A DNA stretch of 33,555 bases, taken from NCBI RefSeq assembly GCF_004360145.1, contig NZ_SAIT01000024.1, forward strand, positions 1 through 33,555, in the 5' to 3' direction. Shown piece after piece: positions 4,655 to 33,555 of the stretch. How positions within the stretch are numbered: position 1 is the first letter of the stretch; the number at the start of each line of letters is the position of its first letter. The stretch comes from Aliiroseovarius marinus. Lineage in GTDB: Bacteria > Pseudomonadota > Alphaproteobacteria > Rhodobacterales > Rhodobacteraceae. The notes under the pieces were generated by a model, which was given only the letters and a program-made list of their open reading frames with translations, was not told where the DNA came from and searched no databases. The position numbers and the translations under genes are program-made.

Positions 4655-5755
4655 TTGGCTGAAGCTGTTACCGACGACGGGTTTGTCGTTTTTGATCGTG
4701 TCCAAAAAAGCTACGACGGGGAAACACTGGTTGTTAAAGACCTGAACCTGTCGATCGCGAAGGGCGAGTTTCTTACCATGCTTGGGCCGTCTGGCTCCGG
4801 GAAAACCACCTGCTTGATGATGCTGGCCGGTTTCGAGACCGCAACCCACGGTGATATTCGCCTGGGTGGTCAACCGATCAACAACATCCCGCCGCATAAG
4901 CGTGGTATTGGCATGGTGTTCCAGAACTATGCGCTGTTCCCGCACATGACGATTGCCGAAAACCTGGCCTTCCCGCTGGAAGTCCGGAAGATGGGCAAAT
5001 CCGAGCGTGAAGAGAAAATCAAGCGTGCACTGGACATGGTGGAGATGGGGGCCTTTGGCGGCCGTCGTCCGTCGCAACTGTCCGGTGGTCAGCAGCAGCG
5101 TGTGGCGCTTGCCCGTGCGCTGGTGTTTGAGCCCGAACTGGTTCTGATGGACGAACCGCTGGGCGCACTGGATAAGCAATTGCGCGAAAAGATGCAGTTC
5201 GAAATTACCGATCTGGCACATAATCTGGGCATCACCACGGTCTACGTGACGCACGACCAGACCGAAGCGCTGACCATGTCCGACAACGTGGCGGTATTTG
5301 ACGATGGCCGCATTCAGCAGCTGGCGCCGCCGGACCTGCTGTACGAAAAGCCGGAAAACAGCTTCGTTGCGCAATTCATTGGTGAGAACAACACCTTGGA
5401 AGGCGTTGTGACCGAGATCTCGGGCGATACCTGTGTGGTCCGTCTGGACGACGGGGAAGAGCTGGACGCGACCCCGATCAACGTCTCGAAGGTCGGCGAG
5501 CGCACCAAAGTGTCGATCCGTCCCGAGCGTGTCGAATACAACAAAGAACGCCTGCAGGAAGGCGCCCATACGCTGAAAGCCGAAGTGCTTGAGTTCATCT
5601 ATATGGGCGACATTTTCCGCACCCGTCTGCGCGTCGCTGGCAATGATGAGTTCATCATCAAGACCCGTAACGCACCGGACGTCGAGCGCCTGAAACCGGG
5701 TCAGCAGATCGAGATCGGCTGGCTGTCGCAGGACTGCCGCGCGCTGGACGCATAA
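4655..5755 (+). CDS. ABC transporter ATP-binding protein, polyamine/opine type (PotA-like)
   Basis: A 366-residue ATPase subunit with Walker A GPSGSGKT (44-51), Q-loop VFQNYALFPHMT, signature LSGGQQQR (142-149), Walker B LVLMDEP (162-168), switch His200 and a C-terminal TOBE-like regulatory domain from about 250. It would power import through the two permeases encoded downstream. The start is TTG at 4655, just after a strong AGGGGGG ribosome site; the frame is open further upstream but no better start was seen. Closest known relatives are spermidine/putrescine transporter ATPases. Its position after creatinase suggests the substrate may be creatine or another guanidino compound, which is inference. 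A 116-base gap precedes the binding-protein gene. Confidence 0.93.
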   Translation: MAEAVTDDGFVVFDRVQKSYDGETLVVKDLNLSIAKGEFLTMLGPSGSGKTTCLMMLAGFETATHGDIRLGGQPINNIPPHKRGIGMVFQNYALFPHMTIAENLAFPLEVRKMGKSEREEKIKRALDMVEMGAFGGRRPSQLSGGQQQRVALARALVFEPELVLMDEPLGALDKQLREKMQFEITDLAHNLGITTVYVTHDQTEALTMSDNVAVFDDGRIQQLAPPDLLYEKPENSFVAQFIGENNTLEGVVTEISGDTCVVRLDDGEELDATPINVSKVGERTKVSIRPERVEYNKERLQEGAHTLKAEVLEFIYMGDIFRTRLRVAGNDEFIIKTRNAPDVERLKPGQQIEIGWLSQDCRALDA

Positions 5756-29368: not shown

Positions 29369-31030
29369 ATGGTTGAGCAAAAGACTCGGATAGAGGCGCC
29401 AAGACGCGCTGGGTATCGGCTAAATATCTGGTCTGTCGGGGCATTTATGATTGCCGCGCTGGTCCTCATGCCGATCCTGTCGATCCTATGGCTGGCGCTG
29501 ACGCCCGAGGAAAATGCATGGCCGCATTTGATGGCGACGACCTTGCCGCGCTATGTGAGTAACACGGTGATCATCTCGTTGTCGGTGGGTTTACTGTCTG
29601 CCGCCGTTGGGACCGGGTCGGCATGGCTGATCACCATGTACCGCTTCCCCGGTGCGCGCTGGCTCGAGTGGCTTTTGCTGACGCCCTTGGCGATCCCCGC
29701 CTATGTCGGCGCCTATGCGCTGGTCGACTTTCTGGAGTATGCGGGACCGCTTCAAACCGGTCTGAGGGCCGTGTTCGGCTGGGAGAGTGCCCGCGACTAT
29801 TGGTTCCCCGAGATCCGCTCGCGCTGGGCCGCCATCGTAGTGTTGGCGGCCGCACTAAACCCTTATGTCTTCCTACTGGCCCGCGCTGCGTTTCGCGAGC
29901 AATCCGCTGATGCCTACGAGGTCGCCCGCGCCTTGGGGGCAGGGCCCTTTGCCCGGTTCTGGCGTGTTGGTCTTCCCTTGGCACGCCCTGCGATCGCAGC
30001 AGGTGTCGCCATCGTGATGATGGAGACGGTCTCGGATTTTGGTGTCGTCGACTACTTCGCCGTCCAAACCCTGACCACGGGCATTTTTACCGTCTGGCTG
30101 GAAAGCCACAACGCCGGGGGCGCGGCCCAAATCGCCTTGGTCATCCTCGGCTTCGTCTTCCTGCTGGCCGCGCTTGAAAAGCTGGGCCGCTCGCGCAGCC
30201 GGTTCTATCGCATGTCACGCCAAAGCCGTCCGGTCGAGCCGCGTGCCTTGGGGCGGTTGGGCGGATTGGCAGCCCTGTTCCTGTGCGCTGTTCCCTTCGT
30301 GATCGGCTTCGTGTTGCCTGTCGCCGTGCTGTTCTCGCACGCGCTGGCCAAGCCGGAATACTGGCTGTCGAACGGACTGCTCTCGGCCTTGGTGCACACG
30401 CTGACTGTAGGGTCTGTCGCAGCCCTTGTCACCGTGTTGGGCGCGCTGTTCCTTGTATACGGCGTGCGTCTGTCCGGCAGCGCCTTGGCCCGCAAACTGA
30501 TGCCGCTGACCACCATCGGCTATGCCGCCCCCGGGGCTGTGCTGGGCATCGGCATCCTGATCCCGATGGCGGCTGCGGATAACGCGATGGCGGACGGCGT
30601 TCTGGCCGTCACGGGCTGGGATCCCGGGCTGGTCATGACCGGCACCGCCTTTGCCGTGATCTATGCCTATTGCGTGCGGTTCTTCGCGATTGCCCAAGGC
30701 GCGACGGATGCCGCAATCGAGCGTGTTTCGCCCAATATCCCCATGGCAGCTCGGTCTCTTGGCCGTTCGGCCCGCGGCGCTCTGGCCGAAGTCTATTTCC
30801 CGTTGATTCGTGGCTCGGTCGGCACAGCGCTTCTGCTGGTCTTTGTGGACAGCGTAAAAGAGCTGCCCGCTACCCTGCTTTTGCGCCCCTTCAACTACGG
30901 CACGCTGGCCACGCGCGTTTATGAACAGGCGTCGCTTGAACAACTGGGACAAGCCGCCCCGCCAGCATTGATGGTGATCGCCGTCGGCCTTTGCGCCGTC
31001 GCCCTGATGGCCCGCGCCAGCCGCCGCTGA
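29369..31030 (+). CDS. Ferric-iron-type ABC transporter permease (FbpB/AfuB-like), fused double permease
   Basis: A 553-residue permease made of two homologous membrane halves, as in FbpB/SfuB iron(III) transporters. Each half has an EAA loop: YEVARALGAGPFARFWRVGL in the first and MAARSLGRSARGALAEVYFP in the second. It would carry ferric iron, or a related oxyanion/thiamine-type ligand, across the inner membrane with a periplasmic binding protein and an ATPase. Neither partner gene is in the window, so this gene is apart from the rest of its system. The start is ATG at 29369 with a weak ribosome site. It is the last chromosomal-type gene before the tRNA-Thr locus. Confidence 0.9.
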   Translation: MVEQKTRIEAPRRAGYRLNIWSVGAFMIAALVLMPILSILWLALTPEENAWPHLMATTLPRYVSNTVIISLSVGLLSAAVGTGSAWLITMYRFPGARWLEWLLLTPLAIPAYVGAYALVDFLEYAGPLQTGLRAVFGWESARDYWFPEIRSRWAAIVVLAAALNPYVFLLARAAFREQSADAYEVARALGAGPFARFWRVGLPLARPAIAAGVAIVMMETVSDFGVVDYFAVQTLTTGIFTVWLESHNAGGAAQIALVILGFVFLLAALEKLGRSRSRFYRMSRQSRPVEPRALGRLGGLAALFLCAVPFVIGFVLPVAVLFSHALAKPEYWLSNGLLSALVHTLTVGSVAALVTVLGALFLVYGVRLSGSALARKLMPLTTIGYAAPGAVLGIGILIPMAAADNAMADGVLAVTGWDPGLVMTGTAFAVIYAYCVRFFAIAQGATDAAIERVSPNIPMAARSLGRSARGALAEVYFPLIRGSVGTALLLVFVDSVKELPATLLLRPFNYGTLATRVYEQASLEQLGQAAPPALMVIAVGLCAVALMARASRR

Positions 31031-31074: not shown

Positions 31075-31113
31075 GTGCCCCTATAGCTCAGCTGGTAGAG
31101 CAACTGATTTGTA
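31075..31113 (+). repeat. 39-bp direct repeat, left copy (probable attachment site)
   Basis: These 39 bases are identical to 31417-31455. They cover the 5' half of tRNA-Thr through the anticodon TGT plus one base. Direct repeats of a tRNA part are the usual trace of site-specific integration. Confidence 0.85.
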
Positions 31114-31120
31114 AGCAGTG
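31077..31120 (+). pseudogene. Truncated intron-less tRNA-Thr(UGU) 5' fragment
   Basis: GCCCCTATAGCTCAG, the D arm and the anticodon stem-loop ACTGATTTGTAAgCAGT are present. The 3' anticodon stem follows directly, without the intron of the copy at 31419, but carries G instead of T at 31115, and the sequence departs from tRNA after 31120. T arm and acceptor 3' strand are missing, so it cannot make a tRNA. It keeps the better promoter. Confidence 0.8.
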
Positions 31121-31416
31121 GCCCAAATTTGAAAAATTCACTCACAAAATGTAAGAAATATAAGCAAAAACAGTAAGATAAGGTTATAATCTTTCTGCTT
31201 CTCGAGTGCGGCATACTACCTTCTATACTACCAATGTCTGGAATTTCTCGTAGTTTACAAGGTTGGTTGGGTGCAGCCCGAAAAAGAACTAAGGATGTAA
31301 TCAGTTATCTCTTGATGCCCATTTGGTTGTTTGTTACATGGGCGATGCGTTGTAAGCAGTTAGGTATGGTCAAGGGGCCTAACTTGGTGCTTACTTCGCC
31401 TAACACTTTTGTAAAT
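31114..31416. other. 303-bp AT-richer insert between the two tRNA-Thr 5' halves
   Basis: No convincing gene: the 64-codon frame at 31234-31428 has no ribosome site and runs into the tRNA. The segment holds two copies of ATACTACC (31213-31220 and 31225-31232) in direct orientation, 12 bases apart, like integrase arm sites. It also holds short echoes of the anticodon region: TGTAATCAGT at 31296-31305 and TTGTAAGCAGT at 31350-31360, the latter matching the left junction at 31109-31119. It looks like the remnant or attachment region of an integrated element. Confidence 0.55.
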
Positions 31417-31455
31417 GTGCCCCTATAGCTCAGCTGGTAGAGCAACTGATTTGTA
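31417..31455 (+). repeat. 39-bp direct repeat, right copy
   Basis: Identical to 31075-31113. It ends one base inside the intron, exactly where the two copies diverge (AGCAG on the left, GCGTA on the right). Confidence 0.85.
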
Positions 31456-31744
31456 GCGTAGCTTCAGGCTCAAACTGGAGTAAGTTGCAGCCCTCATTGG
31501 AAATGATGAGGTGAACTGGTGTCAAATTCGGGGAAACCTTAGCAGCGAAAGCTGTTGGCAATCCCGAGCGAAGCCTTTCGGCGCAAGCCGGATGGAACGT
31601 GTAGAGACTTGACGGCACCCACCTACGGCCAACCGGCTATGGTGAAGGGAAAGTCCAGACCACAAAGCGCCCTCGGGCGTGGCGGCTAAAGTCGTAGTGG
31701 TATGAATCAGTGGGTCGGGAGTTCGAGTCTCTCTGGGGGCACCA
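31419..31744 (+). tRNA. tRNA-Thr(UGU) gene interrupted by a group I intron
   Basis: The 5' exon is 31419-31454 and the 3' exon 31705-31744. Joined, they form a full cloverleaf. The acceptor stem pairs GCCCCTA with TGGGGGC. The D arm is GCTCAGCTGGTAGAGC. The anticodon arm is ACTGA, loop TTTGTAA, TCAGT, with anticodon TGT. The T arm is GGGAG, TTCGAGT, CTCTC. Discriminator A73 and an encoded CCA follow. The 5' exon ends in T and the intron ends in G, as group I splicing requires, placing the intron between positions 36 and 37. Without splicing the gene cannot yield a functional tRNA. Whether another intact tRNA-Thr(UGU) exists elsewhere in the genome is not visible. Confidence 0.9.
31455..31704 (+). 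ncRNA. Group I self-splicing-type intron (IC3-like, Azoarcus tRNA-Ile kind)
   Basis: A 250-nt intron without an ORF. Core elements in order: P2 CCTCAT/ATGAGG (from 31491); P3-J3/4 region GTGTCAAATTCGGGGAAACC (31520-31539); P6 hairpin CAGCGAAAGCTG with a GNRA loop; GGCAATCCCGAGC; the P7/P3 strand GTGTAGAGACTTGACGGCAC; P8 GGCCaaCCGG; and the P7 3' strand AAAGTCCAG. These match the Azoarcus tRNA-Ile intron as I remember it, including an apparent compensating change in P7 (ACUU/AAGU here, ACUA/UAGU there). A possible guide sequence GUAAGUUG (31480-31487) lies next to P2 and can pair with the 5' exon end UUUGU, starting with the U-G pair at the splice site. The class assignment is strong; splicing activity is untested. 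Confidence 0.9.
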
Positions 31745-31798
31745 CAAAAATCCTTTTATCTTGCACCGAAACGTCTTGCACATTGCAGGGCCACTGAC

Positions 31799-31817
31799 GT
31801 GCAGTGAGCTACTGCAC
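31799..31817. promoter_or_regulatory. Inverted repeat upstream of the H-NS-like gene
   Basis: GTGCAGTgagctACTGCAC is a perfect 7-bp inverted repeat in the 192-base region between the tRNA and the H-NS-like gene. No T-run follows, so an operator is more likely than a terminator. Confidence 0.4.
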
Positions 31818-31936
31818 AACGATCATCATACATCGCATAGATTGTTCGTTTAACCTTTGCCTGAACGTGATCCGTAGACACAGAGTACGACATCTTCTAA
31901 CGTGCGGACAAATCTTCACCGAAGGACATTAAGGCT

Positions 31937-32329
31937 ATGACAAAAGACATTAGTGAAATGCAGCCCGATGAGCTTGCTAAGCACATCGAAGAAGCCCAGA
32001 AAATTCTTCAGAAGAAAAAAGATGACGAGCTTGCGAAGCTCGCAGCTGACATTTCTGCTGCAATCAAGAAAAGTAATTTTTCTTTGGAAGAAGTCTTGGA
32101 GCAACTTGGCGTTGCCCCTTCTTTAGGAAAATCAAACAAAGCGGACAGCAACAAAAAGGGCAAAGTTTATGTGAACCCTAACAACCAAAGTGAAACTTGG
32201 GGTGGTGCTGGAAGGGTTCCAGGTTGGCTCGTCAGCTATTTGGAGGACGTTAAAGAGATTAAATTCGATAAGTTTAGCATCAAGCACCCACTTATTGCAC
32301 CCGAGCTTGCAAAGCTTGAGAAAAAGTGA
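31937..32329 (+). CDS. H-NS family nucleoid-associated protein (atypical)
   Basis: A 130-residue protein. The N-terminal helical region (MQPDELAKHIEEAQKILQKK) fits an oligomerisation coiled coil. The C-terminal segment VYVNPNNQSETWGGAGRVPGW (78-98) resembles the H-NS DNA-binding signature, in which YxNPxNxxxTWxGRGRxPxW is usual. Here the central arginine of the GRGR hook is replaced (GGAGR), and a 30-residue tail follows. H-NS-like proteins silence AT-rich foreign DNA; mobile elements often carry one to hide their own genes. A very AT-rich spacer lies just downstream. Lower GC than the core genes supports transfer. Confidence 0.78.
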   Translation: MTKDISEMQPDELAKHIEEAQKILQKKKDDELAKLAADISAAIKKSNFSLEEVLEQLGVAPSLGKSNKADSNKKGKVYVNPNNQSETWGGAGRVPGWLVSYLEDVKEIKFDKFSIKHPLIAPELAKLEKK

Positions 32330-32334
32330 CTTCT

Positions 32335-32459
32335 GGTCTTTTGTAAGTAATTAATAATAATAGTAAATAAAAATAAATAACACTTAATTAATATTTATTA
32401 TTGATTTATTAAATTAATATGATATAGATACTTCATAACTTTTAATATGGAGTATTTAA
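32335..32459. other. Extremely AT-rich spacer upstream of repA
   Basis: About 125 bases made almost entirely of A and T (TAATTAATAATAATAG, AATAAATAACACTTAATTAA and similar), with no gene. It lies between the H-NS-like gene and the repA start. It could be the repA promoter, an H-NS target or a DNA-unwinding element; no iterons were seen. Confidence 0.6.
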
Positions 32460-33377
32460 ATGAGTTATAATTTTAGAGATTGGAGACTTGATGTCTCGAA
32501 TGTAATTGGAACCAAACCGAAGGAGCTCGATTTTGTGTTGCCGGGATTACTGGCTGGCACAGTAGGCCTGCTGGTTGCCCCGGGTTCCGTAGGCAAATCC
32601 TTCTTGGCTCTTGAATTCTGCATCTCGATTGCAGCGGGACGTGATGTCTTTGGGCTGTTTTCTGGGCAAGAGTTCAAAAAAGGGCCAGTATGCTTCCTGT
32701 CGCTTGAAGACGGTGGGGCAGTGCTTCATCATCGGCTCTATGCTTTGCGTGAGTATCTGACAGATGAAGACAAAGCGAACATCGAGCAAAATTTTGATGT
32801 GTTTGATGCATCAGGTCGTGGCTTTTCGCTGACGATGGCTGATGGCTCGCTTCCAAGTATGGTTTTTCAAGCACTCGAAGAATACTTGGATGTTCGCAAG
32901 CCAGTTCTTCTTGTAATTGATACGCTGAACCGAGCTTTGAGTGGTTTGAACGAGAGCTGCTCGGCGGTTGCATCGAAGGTGCTGCATCAGCTCGAACAGC
33001 TGAACCGCAAAGTGGGCTGCGCAACGCTCATCCTGCATCATGCGAACAAAAGCAGCGTCCTGAATGGCAACAGCACAGCACAGGGCATTCGTGGCAGTTC
33101 CGCTTGGTCTGACAATGCTCGCTGGCAGGCAAACATGGCAGTCATGTCAGAAGCGGAACTTGCCAACTATGAAGTTGACCAAGACAATCGAAAATCATGG
33201 GTCAAACTGGATCTCGTCAAATGTAATCACATTGCCAACACTCACGACATCTGGCTGACACGTGATGAACACGGCGTTCTGGTTGGTCAGGTTCCTCCAA
33301 GATCCACGAATAGTGGTAGGACCAGAAAGCGCCGTAAAGGTGGTGATGACATCGATAACGGTGACATCCCATGGTAA
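32460..33377 (+). CDS. repA: IncQ-type RepA replicative helicase
   Basis: A 305-residue RecA-fold ATPase resembling RepA of plasmid RSF1010. Shared stretches include FVLPGLLAGTVGLLVAPG, HHRLYALREYL, RGSSAWSDNARWQ and a LHHANK segment after the second beta sheet. Walker A is APGSVGKS (40-47), and the Walker B aspartate is Asp154 in VLLVIDTLNR. RSF1010 RepA is a hexameric 5'-3' helicase that opens the IncQ origin. GGAG precedes the ATG by 7 bases. A basic C-terminal tail (GRTRKRRKGG) is an addition relative to my memory of RSF1010 RepA. It overlaps the next gene by 7 bases, the RepA-RepC order of IncQ plasmids. Confidence 0.88.
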   Translation: MSYNFRDWRLDVSNVIGTKPKELDFVLPGLLAGTVGLLVAPGSVGKSFLALEFCISIAAGRDVFGLFSGQEFKKGPVCFLSLEDGGAVLHHRLYALREYLTDEDKANIEQNFDVFDASGRGFSLTMADGSLPSMVFQALEEYLDVRKPVLLVIDTLNRALSGLNESCSAVASKVLHQLEQLNRKVGCATLILHHANKSSVLNGNSTAQGIRGSSAWSDNARWQANMAVMSEAELANYEVDQDNRKSWVKLDLVKCNHIANTHDIWLTRDEHGVLVGQVPPRSTNSGRTRKRRKGGDDIDNGDIPW

Positions 33378-33555
33378 CGCTGCCTGAATTTGCTTTGGTG
33401 GATCCTGTCACCCTGAACACAGGTCTGTTTCGCTCCCTACCCAAGGGGGCGAGGCCTGTGCTGGATGCCAAAAAAGAACAAAAGGATTTGGCTTATCGAT
33501 ATGCAGGGCATCATGTTATAAAGGGCGGCGCAATATTGGACCACGGTAGCGCCGC
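33371..33555 (+). CDS. repC: IncQ-type RepC replication initiator, N-terminal fragment (runs off the window)
   Basis: The frame starts at ATG 33371 inside the repA 3' end and stays open to the window edge, giving 61 residues. The start of the protein, with TGLFRSLPKGARP, then LAYRYAGHHVIKGGAILDHG, resembles the N-terminus of RSF1010 RepC (a GLFRAL motif followed by a Y-x-Y-G segment). RepC binds iterons at oriV and recruits RepA. The repA-repC overlap points to translational coupling, the standard IncQ arrangement. Only the N-terminus is visible, so the call rests on this match and on position. Confidence 0.7.
   Translation, partial: MVTLPEFALVDPVTLNTGLFRSLPKGARPVLDAKKEQKDLAYRYAGHHVIKGGAILDHGSA

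Follow-up and report, generated by a model that had tools for sequence, protein, structure and literature searches.

Known bacterial hosts of tRNA group I introns include tRNA-Leu(UAA), the tRNA-Ile(CAU) of Azoarcus, tRNA-Arg(CCU) and tRNA-fMet, and the introns belong to subgroup IC3. Introns in cyanobacterial tRNA-Arg, Gly and Lys are described in the available part of PMC5733544, and the accessible portion of the tRNAscan-SE 2.0 paper (PMC8450103) gives group I introns as the reason why fMet and Ile2 tRNAs were missed. According to the accessible sections of a 2014 review (PMC3984707), every phage group I intron known at the time was located in a protein gene, despite the many tRNAs of phages. 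tRNA-Thr(UGU) is not named as a host in the accessible text of these three papers, nor in that of PMC4033280, PMC11835236, PMC11915505, PMC13386836 and PMC4177764. The preliminary description of the present locus had suggested a new or rarely noted host gene, which agrees with the open-licence literature where, among the matches listed, no description of tRNA-Thr(UGU) as a host was found; older or closed papers may name it. Within the literature covered, tRNA-Thr(UGU) is, as far as searched, a new host gene for a known type of ribozyme.

The other close system is tRNA-dependent lysogeny. In the available parts of the study by Guerrero-Bustamante and Hatfull (2024, PMC10865867), mycobacteriophage Fionnbharth disrupts the only tRNA-Lys-TTT gene of its host and requires its own tRNA-Lys, and Gordonia phage Daredevil integrates at tRNA-Lys-TTT without rebuilding it, is reported to lack a tRNA of its own, and forms clear plaques. 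Introns are not mentioned in that paper, and the own tRNAs of five phages from that study were found to be intronless when their sequences were read.

The window, a stretch of 33,555 nucleotides from Aliiroseovarius marinus, resembles these lysogens, as described in the available parts of PMC10865867, in that DNA is inserted in an anticodon arm, the sole tRNA is not rebuilt, and a tRNA of the same isotype is carried in cis. It differs from them in its Rhodobacterales host, in that no integrase is seen, and in that the replacement tRNA contains a group I intron. We consider it rather probable that an element broke the tRNA-Thr(UGU) gene of the host, and that the cell lives on an element-borne replacement gene with this intron. 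Each of the two components, the type of intron and the strategy of rescue, has been described on its own; tRNA-dependent integration with a group I intron in the replacement tRNA is likely a new variant.

The split tRNA-Thr(UGU) gene and its intron

The whole gene occupies 31419-31744 on the forward strand, in agreement to the base with the preliminary description. The 5' exon (31419..31454, +) ends at anticodon base U36 and is followed by a group I intron of 250 nt (31455..31704, +), which has no ORF and G as its last base, and by the 3' exon (31705..31744, +), which includes the CCA (31742-31744). It had been claimed that the intron lies just 3' of the anticodon, that the halves join at T31454/A31705 and that 250 nt separate them. 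The gene is indeed split after base 36, the junction and the separation are exact, and the joined exons are recognised by ARAGORN as a tRNA-Thr(tgt) of 76 nt. When the unspliced window was searched with ARAGORN at its default settings no tRNA was called, and with introns allowed the same gene was misread as tRNA-Ile(tat).

The group I model RF00028 (Intron_gpI) matches over its full length at 31472-31669 (model positions 1-253; 33.5 bits, E 7.5e-7), with a score below the gathering score of 50, so that a default Rfam scan shows nothing. This is the sole RF00028 match in the whole genome up to E 1, a loose limit at which 8 of 14 control genomes also match, two of them above the cut-off. The whole gene is predicted to form a somewhat more stable fold than shuffled sequences do (z -2.67, with 1 of 100 shuffles as good).

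Evidence for a group I intron also comes from the helices and their covariation. Helices P1-P9 were assigned manually in the sequence of the window and then scored on an alignment of 13 introns, each with 12 nt of exon per side, comprising the window, 11 loci from the pattern scan described below and the megaplasmid of Tritonibacter mobilis F1926; a third Tritonibacter record (L055) was omitted. In P1, the exon bases UUGU and the intron bases AGC (31451..31457, +) pair with the guide GUUGCAG at 31484-31490; all seven pairs form in the window, and the U-G pair at the 5' splice site, which sets U36 opposite G, is kept in 13 of 13 introns. P2, P3, P4, P5, P6, P7, P8 and P9 come next, with the 5' strand of P3 at 31518..31523 (+; partner 31614-31619) and that of P7, the guanosine-site helix, at 31606..31610 (+; partner 31651-31655). 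Every helix forms in the window, including the P3-P9 core with its P3/P7 pseudoknot and the U-G-bearing P1, and with the terminal G the structural features expected of a group I intron are present.

Standard pairing was found in 94.6% of 1021 pair cells across the 13 aligned introns. Changes on both sides occurred in 14 of 80 pairs, compared with a mean of 5.6 in shuffled alignments (0 of 500 as high) and 1-7 pairs in slid versions. P3, P4, P7 and P9 do not vary, the core positions being invariant in 13 of 13 introns; these helices therefore contribute no covariation, and the double changes are mostly located in peripheral, outer helices.

The intron is like other bacterial tRNA group I introns in its anticodon-loop site, the U-G at the 5' splice site, the final G, a length of 200-300 nt and the lack of an ORF, and it presumably resembles the Azoarcus intron and subgroup IC3. 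Its position after base 36 is shared with the Arg(CCU) and Ile(CAU) introns that the splice finder placed there. In contrast to the known bacterial tRNA introns, it has tRNA-Thr(UGU) as host, forms part of a sequence clade of its own, and is found in a replacement gene within foreign DNA. The intact core, and the fact that the gene is the sole tRNA-Thr(UGU) copy in the assembly, suggest that it very probably splices in the cell.

The broken host gene and the inserted DNA

As far as position 31119, the window is collinear (72-93% identity) with every one of the 18 same-genus loci used for comparison. This shared region includes an ABC-type permease-like gene of 553 aa, so named by appearance (29369..31030, +), which is collinear with its relatives and is the native neighbour of tRNA-Thr(UGU). 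At 31077..31119 (+) it is followed by a broken host tRNA-Thr(UGU) with an intact 5' half; 43 of the 76 nt of the tRNA are present, with one mismatch (97.7%), before the gene stops in the anticodon arm. Past 31119 the relatives read AATCAGTAGGTCC... / AATCAGTAGGTCCGCGG and the window reads AAGCAGTGGCCCAAATTTG. In the 20 same-genus genomes the gene is whole and intronless, as judged from 17 full reads and, in three cases, from the coordinates of abutting halves.

The 5' half of the tRNA is present twice as an exact direct repeat of 39 nt (31075-31113 and 31417-31455), consisting of two leader bases and the 5' half up to A37, and the first copy is that of the host. The intron-bearing copy begins about 300 bp (300-304) beyond the host break. 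Its 3' half (GTGGGTCGGGAG) differs from the genus's own 3' half and is 98% like that of two other genera of the family (G030, G034).

From 31120 to 33555 the DNA is foreign, as judged from the end of synteny and from the GC content, which is 60.1% in 1-31119 and 46.2% in 31120-33555. We regard it as the visible part of a mobile element with its right end outside the contig. It contains one ORF with an H-NS-like C-terminal domain (31937..32329, +; PF00816, E 1e-6) and one similar to AAA_25 / RepA-family helicases (32460..33377, +; PF13481, E 7.6e-31), the nearest plasmid relative of the latter being 41% identical (Sulfitobacter indolifex). An iterated profile search found no integrase in the window, the contig of which ends 1.8 kb past the tRNA, at 33555. 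The right-hand junction is not in the contig, and the region downstream of the corresponding locus of a relative (G018) is rearranged in the own genome over contigs C4 and C14. The left end of the element (31114-31416) gave no match to plasmids, and a scan for sigma-70-like promoters, which expects about one by chance, gave none upstream of the replacement gene.

In the own genome RF00005 gave 40 tRNA matches in 39 loci, 38 of which were typed, and the only other threonine tRNAs among them are Thr(CGU) and Thr(GGU). A search of the assembly with the native tRNA (to E 0.01) found no other UGU copy and no trace of the displaced native 3' half. tRNA-Thr(UGU) is required for the decoding of ACA. 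In 27 ORFs regarded as belonging to the host, 47 of the 488 threonine codons are ACA. The assembly is a draft of 33 contigs on which the sole-copy result depends, and tRNA-Tyr, tRNA-Ile(GAU) and tRNA-Ala(UGC) are not among its typed tRNAs either, so that the draft is without some tRNA genes; these three absences are probably assembly gaps. In this assembly, the sole host tRNA of its isotype is thus broken at a short core and not restored, and a tRNA of the same isotype is located on the inserted DNA (31419-31744). From this sole-copy status, the replacement tRNA would be needed for survival.

The preliminary description was right about the intron, its splice points and its host gene, and its suggestion on the descent of the intron, considered below, is not supported. 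It did not report the 39-nt repeat, the broken host tRNA 300 bp upstream, the foreign DNA or the 11 further genomes. It is this setting, beside a broken host gene in foreign DNA, that makes the finding more interesting than first reported.

Related introns and integration loci in other genomes

A pattern scan that covered one genome per species in 84,980 species matched 22 stretches, 11 of which are complete intron-bearing tRNA-Thr(UGU) genes, all in Rhodobacterales. The 11 matches outside this order were left out of the counts; among them, L115 was called tRNA-Thr(tgt) by ARAGORN and Asn by the splice finder. Close relatives of the intron are found, with the same intron and gene arrangement, in 11 further Rhodobacterales genomes. 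Among 394 sampled genomes of the family, 35 had any match to the window intron, and at least 80% identity over at least 200 nt was found only in the own genome and in a Roseovarius record (G153, which shares coordinates with G445 and was counted with it as one genome).

In a tree of 43 tRNA introns the 13 Thr introns cluster at 97/100, separate from those of Leu, Arg and Lys tRNAs; the cluster also takes in a single viral tRNA-Ile intron on a long branch (L207). That row is too unsure to give a direction of descent, and the idea that the intron was acquired from a tRNA-Ile type relative finds no support in the tree and was rejected.

Intron-bearing tRNAs were also seen beyond this group. A viral contig (L236, - strand, ~5187-5481) has a tRNA-Thr(UGU) with a group I intron after U34, that is, at another insertion place and outside the Rhodobacterales Thr clade. 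Candidates were present in 20 of 50 viral stretches (L195-L242, L161, L163; splice finder), for Leu, Arg, Asn, Ile, Ala and other tRNAs, some of them low-scoring and some repeated sequences; they run against the statement, in the accessible part of the 2014 review (PMC3984707), that phage introns avoid tRNA genes. This intron type matched 1272 plasmid records, mostly at 60-80% identity; the records read were L056, L058 and those of Tritonibacter. On plasmid pCTX-M3 (L056, 2861-3159) and its relatives, a tRNA-Leu-like gene that lacks annotation contains a group I intron and is located near aac(3)-IId, and in L036 / L076 (G045) an intron-bearing tRNA-Leu(UAA) is found ~60 bp from an integrase-like ORF.

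No intact native tRNA-Thr(UGU) was found in the 12 genomes with the intron-bearing tRNA when these were searched with the native tRNA to E 0.01. The native copy is broken by an insertion in four genomes, a pseudogene in one, represented only by 3' pieces in one, and without trace in six. Ten partial matches were read and identified as six tRNA-Lys, one Trp, one Ala and two tRNA-Thr remnants, and the remaining weaker ones were read in part.

In Roseovarius the break in the native tRNA falls within the anticodon loop; a gene from the native neighbourhood adjoins this tRNA, and the intron-bearing tRNA is 277 bp off. In Paracoccus rhizosphaerae the tRNA-Thr(UGU) directly follows the host gene that also precedes it in the window and is broken in the T arm, and in Sulfitobacter brevis 57 nt of the tRNA are left, again with a break in the T arm. 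The intron-bearing tRNA is on a different contig from the break in both genomes, where the two may have arrived separately. The Sulfitobacter and Paracoccus element ends are alike in 24 of 30 nt by eye, and no match between them was found with blastn. As a separate observation, these two otherwise different insertions (L171 and L290) both break tRNA-Thr(UGU) after GGTTC.

Such cases would fit a second explanation, which we consider possible but clearly less likely than the first, namely that the intron-bearing tRNA is a redundant, transferred second copy, and that the native copy, no longer needed, then degenerated or became the target of an unrelated element. In addition to the separate contigs of Sulfitobacter and Paracoccus, and the six of 12 genomes where the native tRNA was simply not found, this explanation is favoured by Ruegeria arenilitoris, which retains a full-length, decayed native gene that has no insertion (the order is native flank, decayed tRNA, intron-bearing tRNA ~500 bp on, decayed integrase). 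However, the short distance between the intron copy and the break, 304 bp in the window and that noted above in Roseovarius, is hard to explain by chance.

The remaining genomes are less complete. Ruegeria ANG-R has two 3' pieces, one of them decayed, and could alternatively represent an element beside an intron gained in place. In Salipiger, Roseivivax and Pseudooceanicola no tRNA-Thr(UGU) was found after the native neighbour gene, and in two Ruegeria genomes and Tritonibacter no remnant was found in the 3.9-4.1 kb beside a short match to a native flank from Ruegeria; evidence of this kind is weak. The intron copy is not the sole tRNA-Thr(UGU) of Roseivivax, where an array of 21 tRNA genes within 6.6 kb (L180; Roseivivax halodurans, G447:C21) holds another, divergent tRNA-Thr(tgt).

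tRNA-Thr(UGU) is an integration hotspot in these bacteria: additional 3' halves lie close to intronless copies of the gene in at least five relatives and at least six Ruegeria-type genomes. In 4 of 4 extra 3' halves read, identity to the tRNA begins in the anticodon loop, 4-7 nt before A37, which indicates that the cleavage sites of this group's integrases lie a few bases or less from the position of the intron. Several of the genus's intronless genes have integrase-like ORFs nearby, as do the intron copies in Tritonibacter, in Sulfitobacter and, in decayed form, in R. arenilitoris. In Tritonibacter mobilis F1926 (L054 vs L055) an extra integrase-bearing insert of ~4.4 kb directly 3' of the intron-bearing tRNA has, on the side away from that gene, a 12-nt repeat of the tRNA 3' end.

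The hotspot also lends some weight to a third explanation, that the intron homed into a resident tRNA-Thr(UGU) in place, by a reverse splicing route that would need no intron ORF, and that the fragments nearby are ordinary scars of a busy integration site. We find this improbable, since the intron copy lies outside the native locus in the window, Roseovarius, R. arenilitoris, Paracoccus, Salipiger, Roseivivax and Pseudooceanicola, and the 3' exon in the window is foreign to the genus. Furthermore, three Ruegeria intron copies have a common leader of 136-188 nt upstream that was not found at 20 intronless loci. The same leader precedes an intronless tRNA-Thr(UGU) away from the native locus in another Ruegeria genome (L294, G452:C11), showing that the intron is no necessary part of such replacement genes. 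That the locus is dead, its intron and exons decaying while ACA is decoded by a different tRNA absent from the draft, is very hard to believe with both exons, all core helices and the invariant core positions intact, even if tRNA genes are missing from the assembly.

Proposed course of events and the role of the intron

In the explanation that we prefer, that of a broken host gene and an element-borne replacement, a mobile element would insert at the anticodon loop of the single host tRNA-Thr(UGU) gene and destroy it, and a complete replacement gene would be carried ~300 bp inside the left end of the element. The guide GUUGCAG would pair with the exon bases UUGU, and a cut would be made after U36 with a guanosine cofactor. 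After a second cut behind the last G of the intron the exons would be joined to give an ordinary tRNA-Thr that reads ACA. At the sequence level this is supported by the broken host gene, the foreign flank, the sole copy, the intact and covarying intron, and the recurrence in related genomes, and we infer in addition splicing in the cell, insertion by an integrase, and arrival of the replacement on the same element.

A parallel case, to judge from its sequence, looks to be present in Daredevil. At 2879-3190 of L057 (NC_048021.1) there is an unannotated intron-bearing tRNA-Lys(UUU) beside the integrase, 154-170 bp from a 16-nt attP-like copy of its own anticodon arm. The intron is 72% identical to the window intron over 187 nt, and RF00028 gave no match on Daredevil up to E 0.01. 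Daredevil thus shares an intron-bearing tRNA of the same isotype with the window element, and in its case the tRNA adjoins both integrase and attachment core. Unlike the window element it is a free phage with tRNA-Lys, and in the available parts of PMC10865867 it is reported to be without its own tRNA and to form clear plaques. The clear plaques argue for a tRNA that is not functional enough in this host, or for some other defect.

The position of the intron, inside the anticodon-arm core that an integrase would cut, raises the idea that it hides the replacement tRNA from the element's own integrase, since a core split by an intron would let the element keep a copy of its own target that is perfect in every other respect. 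We regard this as doubtful. In its favour, the joined exons of the window restore the full native arm ACTGATTTGTAATCAGT, and those of Daredevil restore all 16 nt of the attP-like core, which is split by the intron alone. The longest run shared between the phage's own tRNA arm and the region upstream of int is 7 nt in Fionnbharth, 9 nt in Gabriela and MsGreen, 8 and 7 nt in AvadaKedavra, 7 nt for the second Lys gene of MsGreen, 10 nt in OneUp and 16 nt (intron-split) in Daredevil. With the exception of OneUp, these lengths agree with the idea. As the OneUp core is 10 bp according to the available parts of PMC10865867, the 10 nt of its intronless tRNA make up the whole reported core, and an unsplit copy is tolerated there. 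Also against the idea, an intron in the anticodon does not cover the T-arm breaks in Sulfitobacter and Paracoccus, and the Ruegeria genome G452 has the leader without the intron. As a related possibility, the intron might in addition join the broken host half, which has the same UUUGU, to the new 3' half by splicing.

The locus joins two subjects that have been separate, group I introns in tRNA genes and elements that pay for a broken essential tRNA with a copy of their own. If our reading is right, it leads to a testable proposal for why some element-borne tRNAs have a self-splicing intron exactly at the place where the integrase cuts, and tRNA finders that skip introns would miss replacement genes of this sort and call genomes or phages tRNA-less, of which Daredevil may be an instance.
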